DNA from: Diacronema lutheri
Lineage: Eukaryota; Haptophyta; Pavlovophyceae; Pavlovales; Pavlovaceae
Assembly: GCA_019448385.1 (NCBI GenBank)
Contig: JAGTXO010000067.1
Coordinates: 62,001-126,000, forward strand
Reading direction: 5' to 3'
Length of the DNA: 64,000 nucleotides
Both the position numbers and the translations under genes were made by a program. Below the pieces are notes generated by a model. It had not been told where the DNA came from, ran no database searches, and worked only from the letters and a program-made list of their open reading frames with translations. This document shows, in pieces, positions 40,820 to 64,000 of the stretch (position 1 is its first letter; each line of letters opens with the position of its first letter).

Positions 40820-41001
40820 CGCGCGGCCTGCTGCCTGCCTGCCTCTCCGCGCCGAGCTGCGTCGGTTCGGCCGTGCCGACCTGCTCGCTCTCAACCGCCA
40901 ATGGCGTCGGGACACGAAATTCCGAGCGCGGGAGTTCGTGTGGCATCCAAACGGGAGAGTAGAGGACGGACGCCCCGCTCACGCGCCGCAAACCCGACGA
41001 G

Positions 41002-42681: not shown

Positions 42682-43100
42682 AGCGAGGCGCGCCAGCAGG
42701 GCGAGGCCGGGTCACTCATGGCGGGAGCTGTAGCGACATACCCAGCGGTCAGTCATCAATTATACTAACGACGCTTTCCGAGCAGGCCCAAAGGCCCACA
42801 CGCGCCTAGCCACCGCGTCGTTACTATATACGGCGCGGTCCGGGCTGGTCCGGCCAGTGTAAGGCTGAGAGTACGACCCGGGTCGTACAATCAAGGGTTA
42901 AAAGCCAGCCAATGAGCGCTCGAGGGGTCGGGGCGAGGCTTATGACGAGCCTAGGACCGAGACACCCTCCTGACCGGCCGATTTGGAGTAGAATTCGGGG
43001 TCGAGCGGGCGCGGCGGACGGAGGGCCCGAGCCGGGCCGACGGAGGGTCCGACCCCGGAATGCGGGCGACCGGAAGGGCTTGGGTGATTTACGCCTAGTA
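42682..43100. other. Non-coding, lower-GC region with perfect palindrome
   Basis: No convincing gene. It contains a perfect 18-bp palindrome GTACGACCCGGGTCGTAC (42871-42888) and repeated motifs of the type GGAGGGCCCGAGCCGGGCC / GGAGGGTCCGACCCCGG (43020-43060). Composition and texture differ from neighbouring genes; probably mobile-element-derived. Confidence 0.45.
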
Positions 43101-43575: not shown

Positions 43576-44520
43576 CTTCGGACTCGCTGCCCGGCTCTGC
43601 CTGTGCGGGCGCGATGCACTCGGACTCGATGCCCGGCTCTGCCTTCGTGGGCGCGGTCGCGGGCACGGGCGCGCCCTCGACCCCGTCGCGGTTGAAGACA
43701 TCGAACTCGACGCACACGCCGTGGTCCTTGAAGTCGGTGGCCTCGCTGTCGTTCGCGTAAGCCTCGGGCGAACTCGCAACGAGCGACGACATCTCGGCGT
43801 GGAGCCAGCACATCTCATGCTGCACCGCGTGTTCAGGTTCTCGAGCGCTCCGTTGAAAGAGTCACTCTCACCGAGGCGCTCGCTGCACCACACCAGATAG
43901 CCATCGAGCTTGTGAGCGTGCTCGTGCGCCCGTGCGAGGTCCTTGGAGAGCGCGTCGGCGCGCGCGCACATGCCGTCGCATGACTTGGCCGGTGTCATGC
44001 TGTGCTTCCAAGGCCTGGTGCTCGGCGTTGAGCGTGTCGTGATCCTCGCGAACGAGCTGCAACCAGCTGCAGCAGCCGCGCGACGCCGCTGTCGCCGACG
44101 ATGCGCTGGAGCATGTGGCCCATGAGGTGTGCGCGGCACGTGGCGAGCGCCACATTTTTGCGCAGCAGCGCGAGGATCCGGGCGCCGCGGACGAGCCGGC
44201 CCATGCACTTGAGCGCGTAGATTCGGCCGCACATGCACGCGCCGACGACCGAGTCGGCGGGCCCGCCGTCGAGCCAAAAGTTGGCCTCGGCCGCATCGCG
44301 GCGGCGGGCGACGCGCTGAAGGATGCGCACGCGGTAGTGCCGGTCGACGAGCAGCTCGTCGCCGAAGATCTCGTCGGGCAGCAGCTCGGAGACGTTCTGG
44401 GGGTACATGCTGTGCGAGCGTGCACGCGACGAGATCTCGTCGGGCGTGCCGTCCGTTCGTTCAGAGCAGAGCGCGTCGGACCGGCAGACAGACGATGCAG
44501 CGCGCGAAGGCACCTGCGGC
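43100..44520 (-). pseudogene. Frameshifted remnant of an unidentified coiled-coil protein gene
   Basis: Protein-like sequence on the minus strand jumps between three frames: MYPQNVSELLPDEIFGDELL and MCGRIYALKCMGRLVRGAR (44400-44150), then EDHDTLNAEHQALEAQHDTG (about 44040-43980), then ADALSKDLARAHEHAHKLDG and YLVWCSERLGESDSFNGALE (43960-43850), then KDHGVCVEFDVFNRDGVEGA (about 43735-43675). Few splice signals explain the jumps, so indels are more likely. The middle part is a coiled coil. I do not recognise the family. It sits beside other transposon debris and may be element-derived. Confidence 0.4.
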
Positions 44521-44825
44521 GCGCGGCGTGGCCTCGCGTGCCGTCACGAAGCCGCCTGCGCGCACTGCGGAGGCGGCGAGCGCGACGAGGGCGGGCGCGG
44601 ACGAGGTGCTGAGCGGCGTCACGTACGCGCCCTCGCTCGCCGAGCTCGACGCCGCGGCGCTGACGATGCGCGCGGCGTACCACACCGACCGCCCCTGAGA
44701 CGATGCGCGGCGCCCGCGGAGGACTGGTCCGTTGGCGCGCAAACCGTGGGCGAAAGGGCGCGAAGCCAACGGCCGTCCGCGCACGTTCAAACGCGCGCAT
44801 ACGGGTGGCATCCTCCCACCTTCGG

Positions 44826-45140
44826 CGCCGCTTTCTAAAAGGGTGTAGGGTGTAGGGTGTAGGATGCAAAACAAGCCCTCCCCACATTTGGGCCCGACGT
44901 CATTCCTTCTTCGAAGCCGTGACGTTACTCACATACGAGTACCTTTACTTAGTGTAGGATGTATCTATTCTCTAGGTATTTGCATAGTGTAGGGTGTAGG
45001 ATACGTACGGTTATGAAAGTCCCATAGGGGGGAGAAGGAATGACGCTGTGACGAAAGAAGGAATGACGTCGGGCCCAAATGTGGGGAGGGCTTGTTTTGC
45101 ATCCTACACCCTACACCCTACACCCTTTTAGAAAGCGGCG
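44826..45140. mobile_element. Foldback/MITE-like element with perfect 86-bp inverted repeats
   Basis: The arms 44826-44911 and 45055-45140 are exact reverse complements (86 of 86 by eye). The 143-bp centre is markedly AT-richer. Each arm contains three TGTAGGG-type heptamers, and the centre has further TGTAGG variants and a partial copy of the GAAGGAATGACG end. The arms start CGCCGCTTTCTAAAAGGG. No transposase lies inside and no clear target-site duplication was found. The perfect arms imply recent origin or gene conversion. A non-autonomous DNA transposon or foldback element is the simplest reading. Confidence 0.7.
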
Positions 45141-45289
45141 GCGCCTCGGAGCATGGCGGCTCGACAGCATGGCGCCTCGACAGCATGGCGTCGTCCAGCG
45201 TCACGCCGCGTCGTGGTCCTGCCGCTCCTCCGTGGCGCACGGATGGCGCTCCTCCGTGACGCAGCCGAACGACGCCGCGGCGTCACGGC

Positions 45290-46860
45290 CCGGGCGCAGT
45301 CGCCATCCTGGACGCCACGGATGGCGAACCGGTCGACGAGATCCGGCACGAGGACGTCTGCGCCATCGCCACGCAGCTCGACTGCGTCTACACGGGGCTC
45401 ACGGGCTCGATGTTTGGCACCAAGTGGAACGTGTGCGGGGTCATGCTCCCGAAGCGCGCCGAGCAGCGGCCGCAGCCCGGCTCGGACGCCTTCGCCTCGT
45501 ACAGCGTGGCCGCCTGGGCCGACACGTTCGACTCCACGGGGCTGTACGTGCCCGACGAGCGCGAGCGCGCGGCGGCGCTCGCGGCGGTGGCCGGTCTGCG
45601 CACGGCGCGCGCGCCGGCCGGGCCGGGCGGGCGCGAGCTCGCGCGCGCGCAGGGCTACGATCGCGCCGAGCAGGCTGCGAGCGCGGCGGCGGCGCGCGCG
45701 GCGATGGCCGAGACCGGCCAGCAGCGCGCGCTCCACGGCGCGGTCGTCGACTCGGCGCTGCGCGGCGTGGGCGACCGGCTGCACTTTTGCGACGCGCCGG
45801 GCGGCACGGGCAAGACGTTCGTCGAGCGCGCCATCATCGCCGCCGTGCGCGCGGATGGGCACGCGGTCGTCGTGTGCGCGTCCTCGGGCGTCGCCGCCAC
45901 GCTGCTGCCCGACGGCCGCACCTTCCACTCGACCTTCAAGGTGCCCGTCGGCGCCGACTCGGACGGGCAAGCCGTTCAATGGCGTGCCGCGCTCCGAGCG
46001 CGGGCGCTCCGTGGCCGCCGCGGCGAATGATCGTGGGGGACGAGGCGCCGATGCAGAAGCGGGGCCGCCTCGACTCGCTCGATCGGTGTTTGCGCGACGT
46101 GACGGGCGTCGACGAGCGCTTCGGCGGCAAGACGTTGCTGCTCGCCGGCGACTTTTGCCAGTGCTTGCCGGTGGTGCGGCGCGGCTCGCGCGCGCAGATC
46201 GTGCGCTCCTGCCTCGAGTACTCGGCATCGTGGCAGCACGATCGGCCGTACGCCTTGGTCGAGAACTCTCGCGCCTCGAACGCGGCGCGCGACACGGGCG
46301 ACGCGCTCGGCGCGGGCGAGTGGGCGAAGCTGCCGCGCAGCCTCGGCGACGGCGCCTTTCCCGCGGCGGTGCCGCCTGCGGGGGCCATGCCCGGCGCATT
46401 CCCGCTCGATCCCGTGCAGCTGCCCGAGGCGTCTCGGCCTACCCGGCGGAGCTCGTAGCCACTCGCCTCCTCTCGCTCGGCGAGGGGCTGTGCAGCGGCA
46501 CGCGGCTGGTCGTGCGCGGCGTGCGCGCCGGCGGCCGGCTGCTCGAGTGCGCGCGACCCGGCGCGGCCGCCGGGCGCGACAGCACCGTGCTCATCGCGCG
46601 CATCGGCCACCACTCGCCCGACGAGGGCACGTTCGCGTTTGCATGGCTGCACCGCCAGTTCCCGGTGCGGCCGGCGTAACAAGGCGCAGGGTCAAGCGCT
46701 CGGGTGCGCGGGCGTGTGGCTCGCCGAGCCGTGCTTCACGCACGGCCAGCTCTACGTGGCCGCTTCGCGCGTCGGGCACGCGTCGCGCATCCGCTTTGCG
46801 CTTGGCCCGGACCCTGTGACGCGCACCGTCGTCTTCAAAGAGGTGCTCCGCGCGGTCAGC
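45290..46860 (+). pseudogene. Decayed Helitron-type PIF1-like helicase
   Basis: Helicase motifs appear in order but in changing frames. CDAPGGTGKTFVERAII (Walker A) and VCASSGVAATLLPDGRTFHS are in one frame (45790-45960), GKPFNGVPRSERGRSVAAA in a second (45965-46025), and MIVGDEAPMQKRGR plus GGKTLLLAGDFCQCLPVVRR in a third (46027-46190). A stop follows at 46456; AYPAELVATRLLSLGEGLCS continues in another frame to a stop at 46677, and NKAQGQALGCAGVWL with PCFTHGQLYVAASRV in yet another (46680-46790). The order and wording (RSERGR, LxxGLCxGTR, INKAQGQ, SHGQLYVALSRV type) are those of Helitron helicases, not host PIF1. At least four disruptions make it non-functional. No Rep nickase domain was seen. 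Confidence 0.75.
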
Positions 46861-47400
46861 GGTGGCGAGGCGGCGGCGGCGGCGGCGGCGTTCGCCGCGG
46901 CCGCCGTCGCCGCCGCGCGCGAATGCGCGGCGGCGGCGCGCGGTGGCGGCGGGCGCGGCGGGCGCGGCTCGGACGGCGCGCGCGGCGCCGGCGGCGGGCG
47001 GCGCGCTGGCGGCGGGCGCGACGCCGGCGCGCGGTGCTGCCCAGCACCCGCCGGCGCGACGCCCGCCGCGCCGCTCGCGGCCGACGCGCAGCCGGCGGGT
47101 GCTCGCCAACACCGCGCGCCGCGCGACTGGCCCGCGTACCTGCGCGCCCTTCTAGGGCGCGCAGGGCGGCGCCAATGCGGCCGGCAAGCAGGGGCCTCAA
47201 GCCGGCGCGCTGCCCGACGCCGCGTGGGTCGCCGCCGCGCGCGTGCCGTCGGCGCTGCCGCCGTCCGGCGTCGCGCTCGCGCCGCTGCCGCAACCTCAGC
47301 CGCCGCCGCCGCCGCCGCCTGCCGGCAAGCAGGGCAAGCGCGCAGCGGCGGCGACGGCGGTGCGCGGCCCGGCGAGCAAGCGGTAGCGGTGCCGCCGAGC
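46861..47400 (+). other. Ala/Gly/Arg low-complexity tail after the helicase remnant
   Basis: Continues one helicase frame as runs of Ala, Gly, Arg and Pro. No motif is recognised. It may be the degenerate C-terminal part of the helicase gene or unrelated GC-rich sequence. Confidence 0.3.
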
Positions 47401-48566: not shown

Positions 48567-51500
48567 ATGACGCGTGCACGGCGCAGCGCCTGGAGCAACT
48601 TCCGAGTCGTCGGCCGGCAGCCTGTGGGGGGCGCGTTCATCGGCCCGATGTGGCCGGTGAGAGTGCCCGACGTGCCGCGTGGTGAGCGCCTGCACGGCTC
48701 GCCGGGTTCGGCGCGTTCCCAGTCGGCCTCTCTCCGACCCGCCGTAAACCTTGCGTGCGCACCCCGCACACCCGGCGCTGCGCGGCGCGGCGCAGGCGTG
48801 AAAAACGAGGGCAACGCGTGCTACGTGAACGCCCTCGCGCAATCGCTCGTCGCCTTGAACGTGCTCCGTCCGATGCCCCGCTCCGCTTCGCGCCGTGCGG
48901 GAAGAGTCGAGAAGGCGCTTTTTCGGGACTTTGGCACGCTGCTCGAGGACACCGAGGCGCCGGCACAGCTGTGTCTTGTGTCCGTCGTCGACGTCATCTT
49001 GGGCCGTGGCACGCGAGGGACGCAGCAGGACGCTGCTGAGTTCTTCCAGATGCTACTCGGCCGAGTGCCCGGGCTCGCTGCTGCCTTCGAAGACGACAGA
49101 CGCGTAGTGCTCGAGCCGATCGCTGTGGCCTCGAGCGAGCGCGGTGAGGGCATCGCCATCCTCGTCAGCATTGGCGGCGATGCGGCGCGCACGCTCGCAC
49201 ACGCTCTGGGGGGCGTCGCTGGGCCGCCGCAGGGTGGCAGCCCGGACGCGTGCCGCTCGGACGTGCTCATGCCAGCCAGCATTGCCGTCGAGGTGCCGCG
49301 CACGACGCGCGGCAATGGCTCGCAGTGCAAGAACAAGCACGCGTTCGTGTGCGCGCCGCGGCTGCTACTCGGCGGGCGCGACTACCTCCTCGTCGCCGCC
49401 GTCGTGCACTTGGGCGAGGAGTCGACGAGCGGGCACCTTGTCGCCATCGTGCTCCGCAACGGGGCTTGGTTTCTGTGCGACGACGACAACGTGCGGCGGC
49501 GCGCACGGCCGCTTGGCGCCGCGACCGGCGGTTGATCGCAGCCGCAGCCGCCCCGTCCTCCCGCGCGGCACGCGCGCGTGGCCTGAAAGCTCGCGCCGCG
49601 CGCCTGCCGCACGCACGCGCGTTGCCCGCGCAGATGCACAACTTGTCTCAGTCCGACGCGCTGGCGTGGGCAAGTGGTGCGAGCATGCTCTTCTACAGCC
49701 GGCTCGACGCGGAACCGTTGGACCCGGCGCTGGGCTCAGCGTCACCGCCGTCGGCCGCATCGCCTGCGTGGCCGAGCTCGGCGCCCGACGCGCCGACCCT
49801 GTCGGCAGCCTGGTCGCGGGTGCGGCAGATGGCAGCGGTGCCAACAGATGCGACGATCGGCATCGCGGAGACGGCTGCAGACACCTCTGCGGCGGCGATC
49901 GGCCCAGCTGCGTGCGAGGCCCGCCAAGTTGTCTCCGCGACGCGCGCATTGCCAATGGCGGTGAGTGCCTCGCACGCGCACGCCGTCCGCTGTCCACAGC
50001 GTGGCGCCCGGCGCTTGCGTTCGCGCCAGGTAAAGTTTGCGCGTATAGCGTGCAGCACCCTCACGCATCCCCTACGCCTCCCGCCCGCCCGACCTCTTGC
50101 CCGCCGGCCGCGCGCAGGACCAGCGCACGCCAATTGTTGGGCGCGGCCAAATCTGGGCATGCGCAAATTTTGAGCCGGCAGCGGAGGGCGGGGATGCGCA
50201 GCACAACTGGCGCAAGCGCACGTGGTGCCCGCAGCACGAGCAGCGCGAGCAGCGCGAGCAGCGCGAGCAGCGCGAGCAGCGCGAGCAGCGCGAGCAGCGC
50301 GAGCAGCGCGAGCAGCGCGTGCAGCGCGTGCAGCGCGAGCAGCGCGAGCAGCGCGAGCAGCCCTGGCAGCCAGCGCGGCCAGGCCTCGGCGCGGGCGCTG
50401 GCGTTCGGCCCGCTGCTCTGCCGCCGAGCCATCCGCGCGCCAGCATGCGCGCGAGCAACCGCTTCGAGCCGCTCTTGTTGGCCGAGGCGGACGTGCCCGC
50501 CACCGAGCCCGCCGCCGCCCAGCCCGCCGCCCAGCCCGCCGCCGAGCCCGCCGCCAAGCCAGCCGCTGCCAAGCCCACCGCCGAGCCCGCCGCCCAGTCC
50601 ACGGCCCAGCCTCCCACCGTGCCTGACGCCAAGCCAGCCGACCAGCCCGCCGTCAAATGCGCTGCCGCCAAGCGCGCTGACGACCGCATTGCTGCCGCTG
50701 AGGTAGGCGCCGTCGCCGCCACGCTTGCCGCCGCCACCGAGCCTGGCGGCGTTGCCGAGCTCGCCGCCGCCGCCGACGAGGGCTGCAGGGCGCGTGCCGA
50801 CGCGCTCGCCAAGCGCGAGACCCGCCGCGCGCTCCACCGCGAGCAGCTTTTTCGCGAGGACAAGCGCGCGGCCGGCCGCCTGATCGAGCAGTGCGCGCTG
50901 GGCTCTGCGGACGATGCAGCGCGCGCGCGCGCCCTGCTCGAGCGCGTCAAGGCGCGTGGCCACGCGCTGCCTCCGCACCTGCTGCGGTCGCTGCGCGACC
51001 TCGCGTCGCCGCGGCTCGCGCTCGCCGCTGAGGCGGCGGGCGTGCTCGCCGCGTCCGAGATGGGCGAGGCGGACGCACCTGCGGAGGCGCGCGCGCTACT
51101 CATGCACGCCGAGGCCGTGGGCGCCCACCTGCCCGCGCACACAGAGCTCGCGCTGCGCCGCGCCTGCATCCCCACCGCCGAGCAGGCGGAGCTGCTCGCG
51201 ACTGCGCGCGAGCTGCTCGCGCCGCGCGACCCCGAAGGCTCGGTGGCTCCGGCGGGCGCGCGTGCCGAGTGCGACGGCGCCGCGCTCGGCACTCGCGCGC
51301 GCGAGCTCCTCTCGCGACTCGACGAGGCGCACCTCGACGTGCAGCCCTGCATTGCGCGGCAACTGCGCCGGCTCGCCGCCACCGAGCCAGACGCAAGTTC
51401 GAGCGCTGCGCTCGCCGCCACGCCCGGCACCGCCGGTCGCGCGGCCGCCGAGCCGCGGCGCGCGTGGCGCCCGCGCGGGTGGCGTCTCGCGGTAGGCGCA

Positions 51501-53410
51501 AAGGGTGCGCGCGCGCGCGCGCGCGCCGCGGCTGCTCCGCTCGACACGGCGCCGCCCGCGGCGGCCGGCGCCGTCCCGCCGCTCGAGCCGCAGCCCGAGC
51601 GCCGTGCAGCCGACGCCGCGGCCGCCGCAGCGGCGCCGGCGGCCGGCGACGACGGCGTGGCACGCGCGCTCGCAGCCGCAGCGCGCGGCGACGGCCTCGA
51701 CGGCGTCGATGGCGCCGACGACCTCGTTTGCGCGCCGTGCGACCGAGGCTGCGCGCACGCACGCGACGGCGGCTGCTGCGAGCCTGCCGCGCGCAGCTCG
51801 CCCGACCAGTGCCCGCGCGCACCGCCGCGGCGCGCACGGCGGGCGGCAAAGCGCGCGCGCGACCGGCTGCGGAGATCAATCGACAGGTCAGAGCGGGCTG
51901 TCGGCCGCCGATTGCGTGGCGGCGACGCGCGCCGCGAGCGCAAGCGCAGGTGCGCGACGGGCGGCCAGCACGCACCGCAGCCGCTCCGCCGCGCGAGTCG
52001 CAGCCCGCCGTCGCGCACCGATCGGCCCTCGGCCGAGCATGCCGCCGAGCCTGCCGCCGAGCCCGACAGCCCCCACCGCCGCCCGTGTGCCGGTGCCGCC
52101 GTCGCCGTCGCCACTGTCCGGTGCGCCGTCGGCATCTTCGCGAGTGTCGTCGCCGCCTCTGCCGTCCGGGCCGCCATTGCTCCGGCCGCTCGCCCGTCTG
52201 CAGCCACCGCCTTTTGGCTCGTCGCCGTGTGCTCGGCCGCCGCATGGGCCGCCTTCGCCTCCGCCGCCCGCCCGACCGCCGCCTTGGCCGCGCCGCAGCC
52301 TGCCACGCAATCGTCGGCCGCCGAGCCCACCGCCGCCGCGCCAGCCCCCGCCCAGCCCGCCGCTGCCGAGCCAGCCGCTGCCCAGCCCGCCGCGGCCGAG
52401 CCCGCCGTGGCGCAGCGCGACGTCCAGTCCGCCGCCCCGGCGCTGCTCGCGTGGGCGGGCGACGCGGCTGCGCTCCGGCTGGCCGATGCCGCCGCGCGCG
52501 CCGGCATCCCGCAGGCAGAGGTGGACTGCATTGCGGGCGGCGACATGCTCGCCTCCACTGTGGACGCTTGCTGCGAGGTCGTGCTGCGCGTGCACGGGCA
52601 GGCCGGCGAAGGGCGCGTCTGCCACGTACCGCTTGCCGCTCAGCCCGCGGTGTTCCAGGACGGCGCCGAGCGCGCCGCGCTGCTGCACCGCCTGCACAGC
52701 GAGGCGACGACGCAGGCGGTCATCGGCATGTGGAGCCCGCCGGGCGGGCGCGGCGGTGCGGGCAGTGACGATGGCACGCCGCCCGCCTCCGGCCATTTCA
52801 CCGCGTTGCGCCTCGTGCGCGTCGCGCGCGCGGGCGAGCATCGCTACGACGCGGTGCTTGTCGACACGCTCGCGTCGCCGAGCAGGCAGGCGCTCAAGCG
52901 TGCCAGGTCGATAACCGCCACGCTGCACGCGGCGGGCCTCGACGTCTTGCCCGTGCGCCGCGCGCGGCTGCTCGACAACGCGGCGCAGCGTGGCGCGACG
53001 TGCGGCCTCGCCGTGGTGGGCGCGCTCAACGACGCCGCGCTCGCTGCGGCGGGCGGTGCATCCGCGCCGCGCACGTTCAGCGTGGCGGACATGTACGCTG
53101 TTGGCGAGCACCTCCGCGTCGCGTTGACTGGCGCGGTCAGCGGGCGTGCGCCGAGCGGCGCCTGCGCCGGGGCGGGCGCGGTGCGCGGCGGGGGCAGCCG
53201 CGATCGCGCTGCCGAAGCGCCGCGGCAGACGCGCGGCGCCAAGGCCGCCGCAGACGCCGCCGCCGCTGCCGCCGTTCCGCCGCCGCCGCCACCTCCGCCG
53301 CCCGCGCTGGGCGCCGCCGCCGCCACCACCACCGCCGCTGCCGCTGCTGCCGCCGCCGTGGCCGCGCCGCCACCGCCGCCACCGCCGCCGCGTGCCGGCG
53401 ACGAGGGCGA

Positions 53411-53458
<48 letters not shown>

Positions 53459-56400
53459 GCGCACGTTCTTGAAGCTCGCGCCCAGGGCGCGCGCGGCCGC
53501 CTCGGCGCGCGAGGCGTTGCGCGCCGCGTGTGCGCGCGCGGACGCGGCGGCGTCGTCACACGCGTCGGCGCCGCACGCGCCCGCCGATGCGCGACGCCGG
53601 CGGCGCGCGGGCGCAGGCGAGCTGGCGCTCGCGGCTGCGCGCGCGCTCGCCTCGACGGAGCACGGCGATTTGACGGACGACGCGCTCGAGGCCGCCGTCG
53701 AGCAGGAGCTGGGCGACGAGCGCGGCCAACTGCTGCTGTGCACGCGGGGCGCAGCGGCGCAAAGGCCCGCGCTTTGCCGGCTCCTGAAGCACGCGTGCGC
53801 GTCGGCGCGCGCGGCGAAGCGCGCGCAATTCACGGTGTTCGTCGTGCGCGCGGCCACGCGCGGCGAGCGGGGGGGCGCCGCCGCGAGGCGCGTGGACTCG
53901 GTGGTCGAGCTGTCGTGCGCGCTGCACGAGAAGGCGGGCGCGCTCGGCGGCCTCCAGAGCGTCTGTGTGCGTGGCTTTGCCCTCGAGCGCCGCCGGACAC
54001 TCGACGCTGGCGCCGAGGCCGGCGCGTCCGCCATCGGCCAGGACGAGCAGGTCGAGGCAGAGGCGGGCGAGGCGTGCGTCGCCGGCGTGACGATGGCCAA
54101 GCAGCTGCGTCAGTTTGCCGAGCAAGCTGCCCGCGACGACGTGCTCTTCCGCGTCGCCGTGTCCGAGGCCGACGCCCACGCCCGGCTGGCGCGCGTTGCG
54201 GGTGACGATGTCGGCGCGTACAGCGTCGTGCTCGCAGTCGCCGGGCTCGTCTGGCTGGCCAAGGCCGACGAGGTTGCGCCGGCGGCCGCCCAGTCCGCCG
54301 CCGCGCCGCCCGCCGCCCCGCCTGCTGCCGCCACGTCCGCCGACGCCGAGCGCGACGCCTCGCCTTCCGACCGCCTGCGCGCGCTGACGCTCGCCGTGCG
54401 AGTCGCGCTCGCGCGCGGCGTGCTGCGCCACCTCCTCGCCGACGCGTCGCCGGGCGCGTCCGCGACCGCTGGCGGTAGTTGCGCGACGCCCGTCGACGCG
54501 GCCGCGTCCGACGCCGCGCCGCCCGCCACGGGCGTCGTGACGAGTGGCGTCGCGGCGGGCGCTGTGGCGGCCGCACCGGCTGCTGCGGGCGGTGCGACGG
54601 CGGGTGCATCGCCCATCACGCGGCCGGCGAAGCGCGCGCGGCGCACGCTCACCGCCGCTCCAGCCGCCTCGGCCGTTGCGGCCGCTGGAGGCGCACGCGC
54701 GGGCGCACGCGGCGCGGCCGGCGCGCCTCGCGCGCGCGCCGCGCGCGCGCCGGCCGAGTACGTCTGGCTTGCCATCGCGCGCCGGATGCTGGCGGCGCGA
54801 CACGCGGCGGCCGCGGGCGGCGACTTTGTCGCGTCGTGCGTCGCCGCGATGCAGGCCGAGTACGGCGACGGCTGTGCCGTCGTCGTCGGCGACGCGCCTG
54901 GTGACGCCTTGGTCGAGGCTGCGGCGGCGGCGCTGCTCGAGGGCAAGCACGCGGCGGTGAGCCTCGGCTGCGTCGACCGGCCGGCGGTGCTCGTCGTGCA
55001 GCGCGCCGTGGACGCGCCCACGTCGCGCGTGCACGGGTGGTGCGCGCACGCGGCGGGCGCCGCCGAGTTTGACGAGGGCGCCGCGCACGGCGTGTTCAAC
55101 GCGATCGTCGAGCGCGCGTGGGCGCTGCGTCCGGACCCGGCCGACGGCAGCCCGCCGCCCACGCGCACGTGGGAGGTCGAGCGCATCGCTGACGACGCGC
55201 CCGACCAGGCGGGCGTGGCCGCGCTGCGCGTGCTCTACGCGCTCGTCGCGGCGCACGGCCGCTACCGCTCGGCCGCCGCGCTCTTTGGCGCGCTCGCGCA
55301 GCTGCACGCGCCCGACGCCGCCGGCGCGCGCGCGGAGGTCGTCGCGGCGGCGTGCGCGGTGCCGCACGGCGCGCGGCCGGGCGCCGCGCCGGCGGCCGCG
55401 CGGGACGACGCGAGGGAGCGCGCATGGGAGGGCGCTCAGATCGCCGCGCTCGCCGTCGGCGCGGACGCTGCGCGCAGGCGTGTCGCGCCCGTGCGCGCGC
55501 TCGTCGACGCGCTCGGCACGCCACCGACCTCGGCGATCACGGGCGGGCCGGCGGTGCGGCTCGCGGGCGCGGGCGACGGCGGCCACGGTGCACGGTGGGT
55601 GGGCGGGCAGGCGGCGACGCCCGCCGAGCAGCTGCCGAGGGAGCTGCTGCGCGCCTACCACGAGGCGGTGCTGTGCGTCACGCCCGGCAGCCTCCAGCTC
55701 GGCCCGGCGGCGCTCGACGCGGTCACGCGGCCGCGCGAAAACGACACGCTGGAAGGCCTCCTCGCGCGCGTCAGCTGGCAGTGCGGCGCGAGGGCGAGCA
55801 CGTGCGCCATGCTCGCCACGTTTTCCGAGCAGGCGGGCACCGGCTCGCGCGTCGCGCTCAAGGCCCTCCGCACGAGCTCCGACCTGGCCGGGCTGACGGC
55901 GGCTGCGGTCGGGCAGCAGGCGCCGCAGACGCCGCCGCCGCCGCTGCTCGTGATGCTCGGCCGCTGCCCCAGCCCGCTCGTCGGCGGCGGCCTCTTCCCG
56001 CCCGACCGCGCGACGGGCGAGCCGGCGGTGCACGCGGCGACGTCCGAGCTCGCCGTCGAGCTGCTGCGCGACGCGCGCGCGCTGGCCGGCACGGACGGGC
56101 GGCTCGTCGTGCTGTGCCTCGAGGCGTCCAACCCGCTCTGGTTCTGCCCCAAGGTGCGCGAGCTCGAGCTGCCGCGGACGCGGTCGGACGGCGTGCGCGC
56201 GTCCGGCTGCACCTGCCCTGCGACGTGCAGCGATGCGCGCGGCGCGGCGGGTGGCGCTGCCCGCGGCGCATCGACGCGGCCGGCGGCGCGCGCGATCAAC
56301 AAGGCGGTGCTCGACCACTTCGTCGCGCTTTTCGGCCGCGAGGGCTTCGCGACCTTTGAGTTTGCGGGCGGCGGCGAGGCGAGCTGGCTGTGCGACAGCG

Positions 56401-59400
56401 CGGCCGGCAAGACGACCGTCGCGGCGTGCGCGTCGCTCCCGCCGCGCATGGGCGATGGGCAGCTGGCCATCCGGCGGCACACGCTCGGCACGGGCGCCGA
56501 CGCGCCGGCGCACGCCGTCGTCTCGCTCCGCGTCGCGCACGTGAGCCACGCCATCCGCCGCGCGGCGGACGACGGCGGCGCGCGCGCCGAGCGGATGGCG
56601 CGCGCCGCGCGCGCGTTTTGCGATGTGGCGGCCGCGCTGCGCGTCGACGCGATCCTGGCGGAGGTGCCCGAGGACCGCCCGACGGGCACGCCCTTCCTTG
56701 GCGGGCTGCTCGAGTTTTGGAACAAACGCCACGGGAGCTCGACGGCGCCAGCCACGCTCGCGCTCGGAGACGTGCGCGAGGTGGCCAAGCGGACGGCCGA
56801 CGCAGCGGCCGGCCGAGCGGACGAGGTCCCTGCGGCTGGCCGTCCGCAGGTCGCGGCGCGCGCGTGCGCTGGCGCGATTGGCGGCGGCGCGGGCGCGGCG
56901 GGCGCCTCGGACGCTGCGCCCCGTGCACTGGCGGGCGCGTCGGGTGCGCGCACGGACGGCGGCCCTGCCGACGCACCGCGCCAGCTGGAGAGCCGCTACG
57001 GCGAGGCGAGCAAGCTCGACCTACCCCAAGATTCCACTACGGGCTGCGTCCTCGACGCTCGCGAGGCCCAGGACCGCGCGCGCGTGCCTGCTGCGCCCGA
57101 CGGCACAGCGCTGCGCCGCGTGCTCGACGCCGTCGGCGCGGGCGCGCCCGCGCAGCGCAGCCCGCGCTGGCACGACGAGCGATGGGAGGAGGTCACGGGC
57201 AGCAAGGTTGGCGACGTCGTGAACGACAACGCCGGCGTCGCGCACGAGACGCTCACCGACGAGTACGTGCACCGGCGGCGGCGCGAGGTGCGGACCAAGG
57301 CGACGACCGCGGGCATCCTCGGCGAGGCCGTCGCGCTGCGCAAGCTGGCGGCCGCGTACGGCATCACCGTCGTGTGCAACCTGCCGATGGTGCGTGCGGA
57401 CCCGCACGACAAGAGCGCGCCGTTCGCCTTCTCGCCGGACGGGCTCGCCATCCTCCCCGAAGACAACGAGCAGGTCCTCGTCGAGGTGAAGACGCTCACC
57501 AAGGCGGACGCCAAGGCGCACGAGGACGGGCCGCCGCAGCCGCACCGCGATCAGCTGCAGCTCGGCATGCACGTCCTCGGCGTGCGCAAAGCGCTCTACG
57601 TGCAGTACCTCAGGCACGAGGACCGGATCGTCGTGCACGTCGTGACGCGCGGCGTCGGCTGGCTTGCATTCGCGCAGCCGAGGGTGCAGGCCTTCTGGGC
57701 GCGCGTCGTCGAGCGGCGCGCGCGGCTCGAGCGCGCGCGCGCCGACCACCCGGCTGCGAGCCGGCGGCACCGGCGGCAGCAGACGCCGGCCGGGCCGCCG
57801 CTCGTGCTCGCGCTGGACGGGCGCATCCCCGCCGCGCGCGCCGCCGCGCTGCACGCCGTCGCGCACGGCACCGCGAGCGCGGCGGCGGTGGCGGCGACGG
57901 CGGCGACGGGCGACGCGACGGCGTTGCAAGACGCGATCGCGGCGCTGCGCGCGCCCGTCGGCAATGCGGCGATCGACAGCGCAGCGCGTGCGGAGCGCGC
58001 GGCCGTCGAGCGGGCGATCGCGTACCTCGGGCAGCCGGCAGGCGACGCCGCCGCCCGCGGCACGGCCGAGGCGGCCGAGGAGGAGAGGACGGTCGACGCC
58101 GACATCTGCGCGTTGCTGCACCAGCTCGGCGCGAGCGTGGCGCACGTGCACGTCGAGGACGCGGATTGCGTCACGCGTGAGCACTGGGGCGGGGCGGTGC
58201 TCGCTGCAGCGGGCGACCCGTCGAGCGCCCCCGCCATTTCGAGCGTCATCGTCGCGCACATCGTGCGGCTCGCCGGCTTTGGCGTCGAGCTCCCGCAGTC
58301 GATTCGCGTCGCCCCCAGCACGGCCGACTGGCACGAGGGCTGGCTCGACGTGCAGTGCGTGCTGCTGCGCACGCGCCGGCGCGGGCGGCGCGACGACGAC
58401 TTTGTGGCCGTCGTCAGGCGCGGTGGGCGCTGGTTTGCGTGCGAGCCCGGCCGCGCGCGGCGGCTGCAGTGGCGGTCGGTCCTGCGCCGCGCGCGCGGCG
58501 GCGTCGACGGGACCGGCGAGGAGGCGTTCGCGGTCGTCTACGTGCGGCGCGGCGACGCGGCCGGCGACGCGGCTGGCGACGCGCAGGCCGAACGGGCGCG
58601 CGGCGGGCGCGCGCGCAGGCGCACGCGCGGCGGCACGCGCAAGCGCAAGCGCGGCGCCTCCGCCGGGCTCGAGGCGGCCGCGCCCGCCGGCGCGCCGGCG
58701 GGCGCTGCTCACCGCCCGCCCGCCAGGCGTGCCACGGTCGCCGCGCGCACCACGCGCTCTGTGACCGACGCGCGGCACTCGGCGCCTGCCGCCACGGTTG
58801 CACCTGTCTTCGACTGGCGCGCCGGCCGCCCGCCCCCTGCCGCCGCCGCCGCCGCCAAGCGCGGCCAGGCGCTCGAGCCGGGGCAGTTCGCGCGGCCGCG
58901 TGGGCGCGCGCCATGGGGCAAGGTCTGGGACAGAGTCTCGGGTGCGTGGGCGGACAAGCCGACTGGTGCTGCCGTCGCCGCCGCGCCGCCGCCGCTGCCG
59001 CCCGCCGCCGCGCCGCCGCCCGCCGCCGCGCCGCCGCCCACCGCCGCGCCGCCGCCCGCCGCCGCGCCGCCGCCCGCCGTCGCGCCGCCGCCCGCCGCCG
59101 CGCCGCCGCCGCCGCCGCCACCGGCGGCGCTCGGCCGCCGGCAGCACGTCGGCGCGGGCGGCAGCGCGGCGGGCCGGCGGCTCGCGGCCATCGCACGGCG
59201 GCAGCGCGGCGTGCGCGCGCCGCCGCCCGCCGCGCGCTTCCTCGCCACGCTGCCGCCACCGCCACGCGACGGCCTCGCGCGCACGAGCAAGCAGGCGCGC
59301 GCGAGGCGCAACGCGGACGGACGGCCGGCGCACGCGCGCGCGGCCAACGCGCGCGCCTTCTACCGCGGCGTGGAGCTCGGCGTGCACGCGACGCGCGCCA

Positions 59401-62400
59401 TCGTCGACGCGCGCCACGCCGACCTGCCGCAGGCCGTCTTCGTGGCGGAGGCGCGGGCGATCGTCGCGCGCTCCGCCGGCGGCGGCGCGCTGCTCGCGCC
59501 GGACGACGTGCGCGACCTGTGCGACGCGCAGACGGACGCCGATCGCGCTGCGATCTGGGCGTCGGTGGGCGCGCACGAGGCGACGCGCATCTTCGCGCTC
59601 GTCACGCGCAACGCGAGCTTGGCGGGCGCGGCGCTGCTCGTGCTGCACACGCCGGCGGGCGCGCCGGCGCGCGCGCTCGGGCTCGTGGCGACGCGCTCGC
59701 GCGCGCCGTCGACGGGCGCGCCGCGCGACGCGCACAGGGCGCTGGTGCAGCGGTTGGACGTGCTGATGGACGCGATCGCCGCGGCGCGAGGCGCGTCGCC
59801 GCTCGAGCTCGAGCTCGCGCTCGCGCCCGAGCCGCAGAGCGCGTGCAACGCGCGTGCGGCCGCGCTGCTCTGCCTGCAGGCCGTCGCGGACGCGAGCGGC
59901 CGTCCCGCCGCTGAGGACGCGCTGGCCGCGCTCGACGACGCGCGCGGCATCGACCGGCACTGCCACGCCGTCCGGCAGCAGATCGAGGCGAAGCTCGCGT
60001 GGCGGCGCGCCGACGGCGCCGTCGGCGTTGACGGCGCCGACGGCGCGCCCGCGCTCGCGCCTGCCGCCGCACCGCCGGCGTGCGCGCCGGCGCACGCTGC
60101 CGGCGAGGCGGCGGTCGACCAGGCGATCGTCACGCGGGTGCGCGACGCGCTGCGCGCGTGGGCGACGACTGGCACCGCGCCCAGCGCGGCGGTGCTCGAC
60201 GACGCCTGCGCCGCGTACACGGCCCGCGCACGCGCGCGCAAGGACGCGCGCACGGCGCTGGGCCCGACGCGCGCGGCCGAGCTGCTCGCCGCGGCCGCGC
60301 GCGGCGGAGCCGACGGGGCGGATGCCGCGCGCGCGCTGCTCGGCGGCACGCCGCGCCTGCTCGTCGTGCTCCTCTGCGTGCCCGTCGCCGCGCCGTCCGG
60401 CGAGCCGCCGCGCCCGGTCGGGCTGCTCGTCGCCGACCGGCCGACGGACGACTCGCGCCCGGCCGCGCTCGTGCGCTACGACTTTGCGCCGCTCGACGCG
60501 GACGTGGCCGTCGCGGTCGGCGCGCATGCCGTCGCGCTGGCCAGTGCGATCTGGCCGCTGCTCGCGGCCGAGGGGGAGCCGCGGCCATCGCCCGTCGTGC
60601 GCTCGCAGCCGCGCGGCGGCGACGATGGCGCGCGTGCGCTCGCAACGTTCGCGTGCCTCGACGCGCTGATGACCGCCAGCGTCGGCGCGCACGGCCTCGC
60701 GGGCGGCGCGGGCATGCTGCCCGCGCTGGTCGCGCGAGGCGCCGCGGCCGCCCAGCGCGAGCGGCAGCTGCGCGCGGCCGCCGAGAGGCTGGGCGGCACG
60801 GTCGCTGGGTGGCCGGACACGGGCGCGAGCGCGGCGGGCGCGAGCGTCGACGAGGAGGCGCGCACGTACGAGGTCGAGGCGGTCGTCGACGAGCGCCGCA
60901 AGGCGGGCAAGAAGGTGACGTTCCAGTTCCGGATCAGGTGGCGGGGCTACGACGAGAGCGCCGACACGTGGGAGCCTGAGGCCAACGTGAGCAGGGACCT
61001 CGTCGCCCAGTTCCGCAAGACGCGCGACGAGCAGAAGCGGCGCGCGGGCGTATCGGGCAGCGGCAGCGGCGGCGCGGGCGCGGCGTCGGCATTGGCGTCG
61101 GCGCCGCTTCGCGCGCACGGCGAGTCGGGCGCCGCGGGCAAGCGCGCCGCGGCGGGTGCCGCCGCGAGCGCGCGCGACGCCGCGGGCGCGCGCGCGCCGA
61201 GCGTTCCCCGCGCGCGCGGCGTCGAGCGCGCGCGCGTGGACGAGCCCGCTGCGCCGAGCGCGCGCGCCGCCGGCGGCGCGACGGCGCGCACGCGCGTCAG
61301 CGTGCTCCCGGGCTTCGTGGTCAAGCGCTCGACGCTCAACGCGGGGCCGCAGGCGGTGACGGCGCAGCCCGGTGCGCGGAAGGAGCTGCGGCGCATCGCG
61401 GCGGCCGTGCACAGGCTCACGACACAGGCGTACCGCGTCATCAACAAGGTGGTGCGCGACGAGGCTGCGGTGGCGAGCGCGCAGGCCGTCGGCGCGGCGT
61501 CGGGCGGCCCGTCGACCAGCGTGCACACGTCGACCACGATGGACAAGGGAACCGTCCGTGCGATCTTCTCGGCCATCGGCTGGCACAAGGACGAGAGCAC
61601 GTACGGTGCAGCGCCCCGAGGCAAGCCCGCCGAGCAAGCCGCCGCGCAGACCAAGGCGGCGACGGCGCGCGCCGTCGGCGAGATGGCCGAGGGCGTCCAG
61701 CCCGTCTGCGCGGTGGGCCTCACGGAGATCCTCGAGGCGGAGGCGACGCAGGTGTCCACCGCGTGCCTGATGCATCCATCGCGCGTCGTGAACGGGCTGC
61801 TCCGCGACGTCGTCCGCGCGGCAGTCGAGCGCGACGAGGCGCTCGTCGCGCTGCCCGAGATGCAGCGAAACGCGCGCGTGCGCGAGCTGTGCGAGCGGCT
61901 GCTGCGCGGCGACGTGGAGGGCGCGCGCGTCGGCTGCCCCGCCGCGCTCGACCGCCACCTGCCCGACATGGTCCTCCACAAGATCGACTACAAGTGCACG
62001 CCCACGAAAAGGTGGAACTACGACCGGCACACGACGCGCTACTTCCTCGTGCAGATCCGCACCCTGCAGCACGTGGCCGAGGGGCAGGCGCTGCTCTGCC
62101 GGCTCGCGCACATCCACACGCAGCTGACCGGACGGCCGCCGCGGTACAATGTGGCGCCGCTGCGCACGCACAATGTGCGCGCGAGGCGTGGCTGCCGCTG
62201 CCGCCGCCGAGCGCCCAAGCGCGCGCGCCGCCGCCGTGCGCGCCGCCCCGCGGCCAGGTTGGTCACGCGCCCGCGCGCTCGCGCGCCGCGCGCTGCGCGC
62301 AGGTGCCGCGCAACGTGCGCCTCGCCGCGAGCGCCATCTGGGTGACGCTTTCGGATGACGAGCGCAAGGAGCTGCGCGCGCGGCTCAAGGCGCTGGACCT

Positions 62401-64000
62401 GCGCGACCACGATGGCGAGCCGATCAAGTGGACAGGCACAAACGGCAACACCCCGCCGATGTCGGACGTGCGCGTCAGGTACGCGGTCTTTGCGACGCGC
62501 TTCGACATCTCCAACCGCGTCTTCGACTACGCCGGGCGCGAGCGGCCGCCGGCCGATCTGCCGTGGCACGCGCGGCGCTCGTGGGTTGGCCTCGCGCCGC
62601 TGCCGCGCGTGCCGCTCCCGGGCCGGCAGCCCGTCAAGTCGGTGGTGACAGATGGCGTCGCCGTGCACGCCGTCGGGACCGTCCTCGTGCCGAAGGCGCA
62701 GGCGCCGGCCGGCGGCTCGGGCGTCCTGCACCGCTGGCGCCGGCCGGACGGGCGCATCGCCGTCGCGCTCGGCTCCGAGCTGCGGCGGGCGATCGACGTC
62801 GAGGCGGCGGTCGTCGTCGCGGCCGACCCGAACATGGGCAACATCACCACCTACTCTGCGCACGTCGGGCGGGCGGCCGTCTGGCGGCAGTTCACGCAGC
62901 GCGCGCGCGCGCGCGCCGCGGGCTTTGCGCGCGAGACGGCCAAGACCAACGCGGCGCGGCGGCGCGTGCGCACCGACGGGCGCGGCGAGGAGTTCAGCGT
63001 GGAGGCGGACGAGGCGCGGCTTGGCGAGGCGCACAGCGCCAAGGTGCTCGACGCGGGCAAATACATCGCCTTCCACCGCGAGAGCGCGCGGGTGCGCGAG
63101 CGCGCCGCCGAGCACGTGTACGACGCGCCGGCGCGCCGGAAGGAGCGCTGGCGGCGCGACAGCGGCGGGCGGTCCAACGCGGCGCGCGTCGCCGAGGCGC
63201 TCATCGCGGCGCACTGTGTCGACGGCGTGACGCGCGACCGGCTGCTCGTGTGCGTGGGCAAGTGGCTGCGCGACCACAAGGGCGCGCAGCCCAAGGGCGC
63301 GCCGCCCGCCTTCCAGGTGGGGCTGCTGCGCGAGCTGCGGCGGCGCGGCGTCGCGGCCGTCTTCGTGCCCGAGCCGTACACGTCGATGCACTGCTCGATG
63401 CCGCGGCTCGCCAAGGGCGGCAGGCTGCAGCGCTGCGGCGCGGAGCTCGCGCAGAACCCGCGCCTGCCCGTGGCAAAGGGCGGCACGCGCACGGTGCACG
63501 CGCTCGTCATCTGCCCGGCGTGCAACGGCGGCAAGAAGCCCGTGCACCGCGACTACAACGCCGCGCGCAACATCTTCTACGACGTGCACGACATGGCGGC
63601 GCACGCGGCCGGGCGCGACACCACGTCGACGCCTGAGCGCTTTGCCCTCGTGCTCGCCTGGTGGGCGCGCGGCGAGGTGTGGGAGCGTGAGGAGCGCATG
63701 GTGCACGGCGAGGGCGACGACTGCGACGACGAGTGCGACGGCGACGACGAGGGCGACGACGAGGGCGACGACGACGACGACGACGATGGCAGCGGCGACG
63801 GCGGCGGCGGCGAGGGCGACGGCGACGGCGACGGCGACGGAGGCGGCGGCGGCGACGACGACGATGACGGCGGGGGAGGCGGCGGCGGCGACGGCGGTGG
63901 CGACGACGGCGGCGGGCGCGGCGGCGGTGGCGGCGGCGGCTCTCGCGCCCGCACCCCCGCCCGCGGAGCTGCCAGCGCCAGTGCCGGCGGCGGCAGCGCG
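48567..64000 (+). CDS. Giant mobile-element polyprotein: USP protease, Ulp1-like protease, YqaJ nuclease, chromodomain, Fanzor
   Basis: Four exons, 48567-49490, 49634-50029, 50118-62174 and 62303 to the window edge. All three introns (143, 88, 128 bp) are phase 0 with GT..CAG ends, and each exactly corrects the frame, giving 5,025 residues with no stop yet. Order: USP-type protease (Cys85 in NEGNACYVNALAQSL, His290 in STSGHLVAIVL, end ASMLFYSR near 325); Q/R/E repeat (about 482-522); helical region; Ulp1/C48-like protease (His1333, Asp1356, Gln1397, Cys1402); unknown domains (about 1,400-2,780); YqaJ-like nuclease (about 2,785-2,975); Pro/Ala linker; unknown region; chromodomain (about 4,024-4,075); Fanzor (about 4,190 to beyond 4,900) and acidic/Gly tail. 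The ATG at 48567 is the first in frame; an upstream exon is possible. I know of no described gene with this order. Confidence 0.78.
48796..49720 (+). other. USP-like (C19) cysteine protease domain of the giant gene
   Basis: Cys box GVKNEGNACYVNALAQSL at 48796-48849 and His box TSGHLVAIVLRNGAWFLCDD near 49425-49484. The intron 49491-49633 splits the domain, after which SGASMLFYSRLD closes it as in ubiquitin-specific proteases. QDAAEFFQMLLG (near 49030) is the usual QQDAxEF box. Predicted to cleave ubiquitin or the polyprotein itself. Confidence 0.75.
50238..50360 (+). repeat. GAGCAGCGC nine-base tandem repeat in the giant gene
   Basis: About 13-14 copies of GAGCAGCGC with two adjacent GTGCAGCGC variants, translated as Glu-Gln-Arg triplets. 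The length divides by three, so copy-number change keeps the frame. Confidence 0.85.
52440..53110 (+). other. Ulp1/C48-like cysteine protease domain of the giant gene
   Basis: GHFTALRLV supplies the His, VLVDTL the Asp, and NAAQRGATCGLAVVGAL the Gln and Cys with the Gln-x4-Cys spacing of Ulp1 and adenain-like enzymes. Such proteases are common in eukaryotic DNA transposons. Assignment rests on catalytic-residue order and spacing. Confidence 0.6.
57140..57720 (+). other. YqaJ-like PD-(D/E)XK nuclease domain of the giant gene
   Basis: SPRWHDERWEEVTGSKVGDV opens the domain as in viral YqaJ exonucleases. It is followed by AGILGEAVALRKLAAAYG, FSPDGLAILPEDNEQVLVEV then KT (catalytic Asp, Glu and Lys), and HRDQLQLGMHVLGV (the Q-x-Q helix). 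Predicted DNA exonuclease or recombinase. Confidence 0.75.
58985..59125 (+). repeat. 18-bp Pro/Ala repeat in the giant gene
   Basis: About seven tandem copies of an 18-bp unit of the form GCGCCGCCGCCCGCCGCC, translated as APPPAA units; a flexible linker between domains. Confidence 0.8.
60867..61022 (+). other. Chromodomain in the giant gene
   Basis: TYEVEAVVDERRKAGKKVTF, then QFRIRWRGYDESADTWEPEA and NVSRDLVAQF show the beta-sheet and helix of a chromodomain, with aromatic-cage-type residues at Tyr, Trp and Tyr/Trp positions. Chromodomains in transposons and retrotransposons guide them to methylated histone H3. Confidence 0.85.
61370..63640 (+). other. Fanzor (eukaryotic TnpB-like, RNA-guided nuclease) domain
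   Basis: The N-terminal part reads VLHKIDYKCTPTKRWNYDRH and NVAPLRTHN/VPRNVRL across the 62175-62302 intron, as in Fanzor1 proteins. RuvC-I Asp4634 is in VVVAADPNMGNITTY, RuvC-II Glu4816 in VFVPEPYTSMHCS and RuvC-III Asp4876 in VHRDYNAARNIF. A zinc ribbon uses Cys4823, Cys4837, Cys4863 and Cys4866 (ICPACNGG). All catalytic positions are present. Fanzors cut DNA guided by an omega RNA usually encoded at the 3' end of the element, which would lie beyond this window. Confidence 0.85.
62175..62302 (+). other. Phase-0 intron inside the Fanzor domain
   Basis: GTGCGC at 62175 to GCGCAG ending at 62302, 128 bp. Removing it moves the frame by two bases and joins APLRTHN to VPRNVRLAASAIWVTL. Without it the long frame ends in an Arg-rich shadow at 62345. 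Confidence 0.8.

Follow-up and report, generated by a model that had tools for sequence, protein, structure and literature searches.

Gene structure and domains of the predicted giant protein

We analysed a window of 64,000 nucleotides from the haptophyte alga Diacronema lutheri (contig JAGTXO010000067.1, positions 62,001 to 126,000 of the forward strand; coordinates below are those of the window), in which a giant plus-strand gene at the right-hand edge appears to combine a USP domain, an Ulp1-like cysteine protease, a YqaJ nuclease, a chromodomain and a Fanzor nuclease. The gene is carried by a repeated element, of which the window holds a copy of form A; two longer forms, B and C, are described below. 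A stop-free frame of 4,098 codons extends from 50049 to 62345. Joining exon 1 (48567-49490), exon 2 (49634-49960), exon 3 (50118-62174, 4,019 codons) and exon 4 (62303-64027, of which 62303-64000 lies in the window) gave a protein of 5,010 amino acids, with its sole stop codon at 64025-64027, just past the window. The three predicted introns are on the plus strand and all in phase 0: intron 1 (49491-49633, 143 nt, GTGCGG...GCGCAG), intron 2 (49961-50117, 157 nt, GTGAGT...GCGCAG) and intron 3 (62175-62302, 128 nt, GTGCGC...GCGCAG). The longest open run inside exon 3 was 4,019 codons, whereas the best of 200 dinucleotide shuffles reached 1,830 codons (mean 684). On the antisense strand the longest run over this stretch was 1,717 codons, and the giant frames there had no Pfam match. 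Third-position GC of the giant frame was 0.86-0.95 in bins from 50501 to 62500. The original prediction of a single frame held together by three phase-0 GT..CAG introns was therefore confirmed.

Restoration of the frame by introns was weak evidence by itself, because other GT/AG pairs also keep the frame open. Two comparisons appear to give the intron model better support. In the annotated D. lutheri protein KFE25_006464 (P0002), a diverged copy known here from its protein sequence only, RTHN runs straight into VPRN, as intron 3 predicts. In one B copy, intron 1 measures 142 nt instead of 143, exon 1 differs in length by whole codons, and intron 1 lacks its TGA. The link between the USP exons and exon 3 is less secure, because an ATG is available within exon 3 itself, at residue 527. 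It is possible, if somewhat doubtful, that two genes are present: a USP gene made of exons 1 and 2, and an independent giant gene starting from the ATG at residue 527, which would still encode the exonuclease, the chromodomain and Fanzor. This arrangement would suit the position of that ATG, which is the first in frame in exon 3, the loss of constraint on USP (see below), and the B copy, which differs from A in everything read after the intron-2 donor; against it, the donor GTGAGT and the acceptor GCGCAG restore the frame exactly in A.

The USP domain lies in exon 1, with the Cys box GNACYVN at 48810 and the His box SGHLVAIV at 49428, and matched PF00443 (E 7.3e-15) as well as USP46 and USP12 in PDB (E 2.5e-6 to 4.7e-5). 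Exon 2 carries the end of the USP fold (ASMLFYSR, by eye) and a linker. Within exon 3, an Ulp1-like cysteine-protease segment (52500-53193, plus strand) has motifs with His (52788), Asp (52857) and Cys (52995) in the expected order. This identification is by motif only: the segment had no Pfam (E up to 5), NCBIfam or PDB match, and none of the nine genome-wide matches to PF02902 (Peptidase C48) fell at a listed Ulp1-like place. Downstream, a YqaJ/lambda-exonuclease/RecE-like nuclease (57147-57716, plus strand) carries SPDG at 57432 and LVEVKT at 57477. It scored 22.2 bits against PF09588 (57168-57575), for which the cut-off is 22, and just 16.9 bits in a longer query; it also matched the RecE-like PHROG 434 (phrog_434, E 1.5e-17) and the lambda-exonuclease family TIGR03033 (E 6.9e-8, 32.7 bits, below the cut-off of 68). 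PDB searches with the YqaJ and Ulp1-like segments gave no convincing match. The chromodomain (60867-61019, plus strand) matched PF00385 with E 2.9e-12. Of the domains named at the outset, USP, YqaJ, the chromodomain and Fanzor were thus recovered by profiles, whereas the Ulp1-like protease was recognised by its motif.

The Fanzor part begins with an N-terminal half at 61299-62174 (plus strand), assigned by context and by P0002, and continues in exon 4 with the RuvC region, the zinc ribbon and an acidic tail. Exon 4 contains ADPN (62822), VPEPYTSMHC (63365), CPAC (63512) and HRDYNAARN (63545). The zinc ribbon matched PF07282 above its cut-off (E 1.8e-6), and there was a weak TnpB match (NF040570, E 0.017); a PDB search with Fanzor returned no convincing match, with Cas12f1 at E 0.41. 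Fanzor proteins are described by the motif D-X(125,275)-[TS]-[TS]-X-X-C4 zinc finger-X(5,50)-RD (PMC3627910). The D. lutheri protein has 184 residues from D to TS, then TSMHC, four Cys including CPAC, and HRD, in agreement with this motif; the first Cys pair of the zinc finger is, by eye, spaced wider than CxxC. The catalytic Glu of Fanzors is reported to be displaced to six residues upstream of the zinc finger (PMC10711439), and a Glu is present six residues before the first Cys (EPYTSMHC at residue 4793). No methionine occurs between residues 3950 and 4225, a stretch that holds the chromodomain (about 4000-4050) and the start of Fanzor (4145), so there is no start codon between the two. Unless there is an unseen exon, a Fanzor translated from its own ATG would consequently take the chromodomain along or lose its N-terminus. 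P0002 joins its Fanzor fragment to SAM domains, which may be a real exon capture or an annotation chimera.

Extent and ends of the element

The D. lutheri assembly (43,492,796 bases, 103 contigs), in which the window is part of contig C101, was searched for further copies. The copy in the window runs from 42824 to 64432, a total of 21,609 bp, with its 3' end beyond the window edge; the part at 42824-64000 belongs to subfamily A, lies on the plus strand, and the element has the ends 5'-CTATATACGGCGCGG ... GACCATCTATAC-3'. Matching around the Fanzor exon stopped at one place, ...GACCATCTATAC, in 30 loci, 28 of them with precisely this ending, another with a final A at a contig end and the last a few bases shorter. 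At the other side, matching in the 5'-end loci (n = 25) began at CTATATA(C/G)GGCGCGG or only a few bases away. Common forms were read as C/TATATA for 22 of 26 left ends and as ATCTATAC for 40 of 42 right ends, the remainder differing by a few bases. The flanks of the copies are largely unrelated to each other, except that L012 and L013 share one flank and that the window copy, L053 and L073 adjoin the same small repeat. Both ends carry a short direct motif (CTATATAC ... CTATAC), and no terminal inverted repeat was seen at them. The earlier proposal of a coding gene belonging to a very large mobile element with a Fanzor was supported by the common ends and the repeated copies of the same order. 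Its extent of 48567 to 64000 held for the giant gene; the element itself starts at 42824, ends at 64432 and adds a PIF1 gene.

This second gene, a PIF1-type helicase, lies at 45260-46870 on the plus strand in several frames, presumably exons; its limits are approximate and its C-terminal part was placed by eye. Successive or overlapping frames matched PF05970 with E 6.5e-19, 2.7e-23 and 2.6e-24. Upstream of it, a short open frame on the minus strand (43998-44543) has high third-position GC in parts and no Pfam match. Reading the sequence near the 5' end revealed a perfect 18-bp palindrome, GTACGACCCGGGTCGTAC (42871-42888), and a near-perfect palindrome, GGGGCGCGATCGTGCCCC, lies 28 bp from the 3' end, beyond the window. 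The stretch from the Fanzor stop to the element end (64027 to 64432) is a conserved 405 bp. An inverted repeat at 44823-45143, with 89-nt arms that are 99% complementary and 143 nt apart, sits between the minus-strand frame and the PIF1 gene, possibly as a terminator or divergent promoter.

Outside the element, a beta-eliminating lyase frame (40963-42681; PF01212, E 5.2e-64) ends 143 bp upstream. The small repeat next to the window copy, at 42740-42823, has the ends TATACTAACGACGC / GCGTCGTTA and is found next to several insertions (L011, L053, L073, L083), with the appearance of a very small transposable element in its own right.

Copies and forms in the genome

Copy counts across the genome were taken from scored matches only and are lower bounds. 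The Fanzor exon gave at least 91 scored matches (99-100% identity), the chromodomain with the Fanzor N-terminus at least 92, USP at least 146, and PIF1 and PF07282 at least 148 each; for the Ulp1-like and YqaJ segments, 150 of 231 and 150 of 232 candidates were scored, respectively. At least 178 distinct places carry an Ulp1-like segment, a YqaJ segment or both, and the number was the same when pairing was loosened to 25 kb on either strand. A YqaJ segment lies 4.3-4.9 kb downstream on the same strand for 122 of the 150 scored Ulp1-like matches, with equal open-frame length in 109, and the domain order of the window thus recurs in many second copies. The YqaJ match fell in a frame of at least 4,000 codons in 110 of 150 cases.

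The copies fall into forms of about 21.6 (A), 29 (C) and 31 kb (B). Form A accounts for 30 matches at 100% identity to the window in each of the scored USP and Ulp1-like lists. The other scored Ulp1-like matches lie at 83-85% (118 of 150), apart from two at 94 and 97%, and the other scored USP matches at 77-80%, apart from one at 95%. A B copy on contig C9 measures 31,039 bp; its sequence after the intron-2 donor is unrelated to A, and its USP-to-Ulp1-like distance is 7.8 kb longer. Form C combines an A-like PIF1 with a long middle and is about 29 kb by match coordinates on C30. Spacing was compared for 52 of the 148 PIF1 and 48 of the 150 Ulp1-like places: among the 52 PIF1 matches at 99-100% identity, 46 had an Ulp1-like match downstream, 29 of them at ~7 kb (A) and 17 at ~15 kb (C). 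If all copies are full length, the element would total an estimated ~5 Mb (30 x 21.6 kb + 148 x ~30 kb), or about one-tenth of the genome. The published genome of strain NIVA-4/92 (43,502,671 bases, 103 contigs) is reported to contain 22.9% repeats, with long terminal repeat and long interspersed nuclear elements as the majority of the annotated repeats, and the main text of that paper does not contain the words Helitron or transposable (PMC8379373).

Nine contigs (C1, C5, C6, C10, C12, C26, C29, C83, C91) begin within 30 bp of the element 3' end, as judged from YqaJ coordinates. The element is therefore probably a cause of assembly breaks, and the true copy number is likely to be higher. A telomere association was considered for these nine starts; no search for telomeres was made, and the simpler account is that the assembly broke at a repeat exceeding the read length. 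It is extremely improbable that the gene as a whole is an assembly artefact or a set of chance open frames in GC-rich DNA. Such contig starts and the long antisense frames (1,787 codons, at about 79% GC) are what this explanation would draw on, but the shuffles reach at most 1,830 codons, the domain matches are in frame, and the same order is found at many sites with different flanks.

Two further observations concern single loci and other families. L012 (C68) and L013 (C69) have nearly the same flank, suggesting a retained duplicate or haplotig. Among the 148 scored PF07282 matches, 31 scored above the value common to the Fanzor of the element, some of them in frames of 1,500-1,800 codons (C1:154701, C9:378667, C69:650235, C85:60775 and C89:783182 are among the 31), and these are probably further Fanzor families. 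One of them, C49:215742, lies 3 kb from an Ulp1-like match, and four others (C25, C71, C75, C78) have a PIF1 match 7-20 kb upstream on the same strand.

Exchange between copies and selection

We compared the window A copy with one B copy, that on C9. The two were 99.97% identical over the last 3.6 kb and 99.7% identical over the first 2.2 kb, yet their synonymous divergence (dS) was 0.21 for the Ulp1-like segment, 0.13 for USP exon 1 and 0.04 for exon 2. Around YqaJ, a long-form copy on C71 with a USP match in the 77% group showed 99.7% identity over 3,414 bases (L001). Near-identical blocks thus lie beside diverged ones, indicating exchange between copies. This block-wise exchange between forms fits recombinational copying.

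The same pair of copies was used for the selection tests, expressed as the ratio of non-synonymous to synonymous divergence (dN/dS). The Ulp1-like segment had a dN/dS of 0.40 (34.5/188 synonymous versus 39.5/502 non-synonymous sites; Fisher P = 2.8e-4), which shows that it is under purifying selection between A and B. For USP, dN/dS was 1.08 in exon 1, 1.67 in exon 2 and 1.14 for both (P = 0.61), so that no constraint was detected, and the C9 copy has changes in the USP Cys box. USP lacks detectable constraint between the subfamilies, which casts doubt on a processing role for it in at least one of the two. The suggestion that the protease modules process the gene product is therefore weakened for USP, and the second protease is known by its motif only; the processing idea may rest on the Ulp1-like segment rather than on USP.

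Insertion pattern and transposition class

Both flanks were read for 14 copies. The left and right flanks of 12 copies share no word longer than 8 bp, as compared with a mean of 6.2 and a maximum of 11 in 182 mismatched pairs. Of the two exceptions, one copy shares 13 bp next to its ends, and in the window copy the two flanks have a 39-bp word in common that does not abut the ends. This 39-bp repeat was rejected as a target duplication: it is offset by 6 bp on the left and 32 bp on the right and resembles a dispersed repeat.

The PIF1 helicase (PF05970), a Helitron feature, the absence of duplication at 12 of 14 paired ends, the palindromes and the captured Fanzor resemble Helitron-like (Helitron2) elements. 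The element could thus be a giant rolling-circle element of Helitron2 type, in which PIF1 would be a remnant or a separated RepHel helicase, Rep would act in trans or be too diverged for recognition, and Fanzor, the exonuclease and the proteases would be cargo or helpers. The helicase is present in at least 148 scored copies, palindromes lie near both ends, Fanzor1 occurs in Chlamydomonas Helitron2 elements with variable or no target duplications (PMC3627910), and deubiquitinase domains occur in Helitrons (PMC9741609). However, no Rep match was obtained in the scanned A-form frames, and the sole genome-wide match to Helitron_like_N (PF14214; C63:35738-36019, 86 bits) lies away from the listed copies, on a contig where the copy lists have no entry. 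The ends are CTATATAC...CTATAC and do not match the Helitron1 pattern TC...CTRR with insertion between A and T: in 24 of 40 copies G is the first base of the right flank, and the left end shows C instead of A/T or T/T. An asymmetric terminal inverted repeat was equalled by 40 of 300 shuffles and is thus not significant. Because Rep and the end signals fail, the element was not filed under Helitron2, and we regard a Helitron-like origin as possible at most tentatively.

Another explanation places a true transposase in the B and C forms, so that the A form in the window would be a non-autonomous or deletion relative moved in trans, the whole perhaps being a tyrosine-recombinase (Crypton- or Starship-like) element. 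Diverged longer forms do outnumber A (118 at 83-85% versus 30 at 100% among 150 scored Ulp1-like matches), A contains no recognisable transposase, and the short direct end motifs (CTATATAC...CTATAC) would suit a tyrosine recombinase. In the scanned A-form frames, however, no tyrosine recombinase was found, and the part specific to B, read for ~0.7 kb (the end of L074) of its ~7.8 kb, holds no long frame of its own there. Moreover, in a small repeat that the element interrupts, the base at the joint was read by eye as G where the terminal motif has C, and a simple core-site crossover is thus not demonstrated. We consider this explanation unlikely. As for a Polinton/Maverick element or an endogenous virus, the scanned A-form frames gave no Pfam match to protein-primed PolB, retroviral-like integrase, ATPase or capsid.

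Relatives and closest known systems

In a search of 5.8 billion proteins with residues 2300-4050 of the exon-3 frame, no relative was found at E 1e-3 among 1,703 scored candidates. The Fanzor part, searched against the same proteins, retrieved only P0001 (570 amino acids, 98% identity, on a 2,435-base contig) and P0002 among 8,000 scored. No Fanzor or YqaJ relative was confirmed in the IMG/VR viral contigs. In phage genomes, the YqaJ matches had 27-30% identity among the matches listed (best E 4e-3), which is background only. The statement in the original prediction that no described element of this architecture was known agrees with our finding none in the literature searched, a body of text with subscription papers and bioRxiv preprints mostly outside its coverage.

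The closest known systems share some features with the D. lutheri element. The Helitron2 elements CRe-1, -2 and -3 of Chlamydomonas reinhardtii also place a multi-exon Fanzor1 in an algal mobile element, and their copies with a full 5' end insert without target duplication; yet they carry Fanzor exons only and are most likely non-autonomous, and 5' truncation is common among them, the truncated copies mostly having flanking duplications (about 70% of CRe-1) (PMC3627910). In D. lutheri, by contrast, Fanzor is the C-terminal part of a 5,010-amino-acid polyprotein within an element of 21.6-31 kb, and 12 of 14 paired ends lack a duplication. SpuFz1 of Spizellomyces punctatus likewise belongs to a multi-copy element, Spu-1, for which the authors raise cut-and-copy, but Spu-1 is about 2.1 kb long, with inverted repeats and a single stand-alone Fanzor frame (PMC10432273). 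Helentrons and Helitrons with VTD or OTU deubiquitinases combine a helicase with cysteine proteases of the deubiquitinase kind, whereas they encode RepHel and AP endonuclease, and YqaJ and Fanzor are not named in the main text of that report (PMC9741609). Polinton/Maverick elements, Terminons and giant Gypsy elements are similar in size range (Polintons 15-40 kb; PMC6431247), but the scanned A-form frames match no PolB, retroviral integrase, capsid or reverse transcriptase. Finally, phage RecE and lambda-exonuclease (YqaJ) proteins share profile matches and the SPDG/EVK motifs with the D. lutheri domain, which differs in being one domain of a eukaryotic polyprotein linked to Fanzor.

Discussion

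Starting from the observed frame, profile-supported domains, common ends, copy number and block-wise exchange between forms, we propose, with a probability of about 0.5 and on the strength of sequence comparison, that the locus holds the principal gene of a giant DNA mobile element, amplified recently in the D. lutheri nuclear genome, which would pair a PIF1 helicase with a polyprotein gene (USP, Ulp1-like, YqaJ, chromodomain, Fanzor) and spread as follows. A guide RNA, expected by analogy to arise in the conserved 405 bp that separate the Fanzor stop from the 3' end, would direct Fanzor to cut the unoccupied or sister site. The exonuclease joined to Fanzor would resect the break, and homologous recombination would then copy the element into the cut site. 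A helicase-assisted, possibly rolling-circle step would make the first insertions, the chromodomain would tether the complex to chromatin, and the Ulp1-like protease would release the parts of the polyprotein. The linkage of Fanzor to a lambda-type exonuclease suggests coupled cutting and resection. On the model of TnpB, Saito et al. discuss whether Fanzor acts in cut-and-copy (PMC10432273).

Several results weigh against this proposal. No transposase, integrase, recombinase, reverse transcriptase or Rep was recognised in the scanned A-form frames, and as none of the transposase, integrase, recombinase and Rep kinds was found in A, the first insertions are unexplained. No guide RNA emerged: Rfam gave nothing at the gathering threshold for window positions 42000-64000 or for L048, the locus containing the 3' end, and two 150-nt pieces taken from the 3' region did not surpass shuffles in folding (z -0.59 and -0.90). 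RuvC-I reads DPN at residue 4611, with DP kept and G replaced, whereas DPG has been called near-exclusive in Fanzors. Structure predictions were too poor for use, with a mean predicted local distance difference test score (pLDDT) of 36 for 55401-57060 and 41 for the Ulp1-like pair. Frames of fewer than 4,000 codons surround 40 of the 150 scored YqaJ matches, 27 of them below 3,600 codons; 4 of the 148 scored PIF1 matches contain a stop codon; and the copy on C5 lacks the first 96 bp, its start corresponding to 42920 in the window. To these is added the unconstrained USP, and the block-wise identity between copies could come from ordinary gene conversion.

A further step would be to regard the element as a new class, in which one polyprotein unites an RNA-guided double-strand cutter with an end-resecting exonuclease and so forms a self-contained natural gene drive without a conventional transposase, one that has overrun about a tenth of the host genome. 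We rate this as distinctly improbable.

It is still a question why Fanzor genes are retained by eukaryotic transposons, and one idea, derived from TnpB, is that cutting aids persistence or recombinational copying. In D. lutheri, a small sequenced alga, the cutter is apparently covalently joined to a recombination-starting enzyme, in scores of near-identical, mostly open copies. A natural fusion of nuclease, exonuclease and chromodomain is also a possible scaffold for genome editing. Since each right flank would be a guide, the element family would supply many natural pairs of guide and target at once, and the fusion makes the idea of cutting followed by recombination directly testable.

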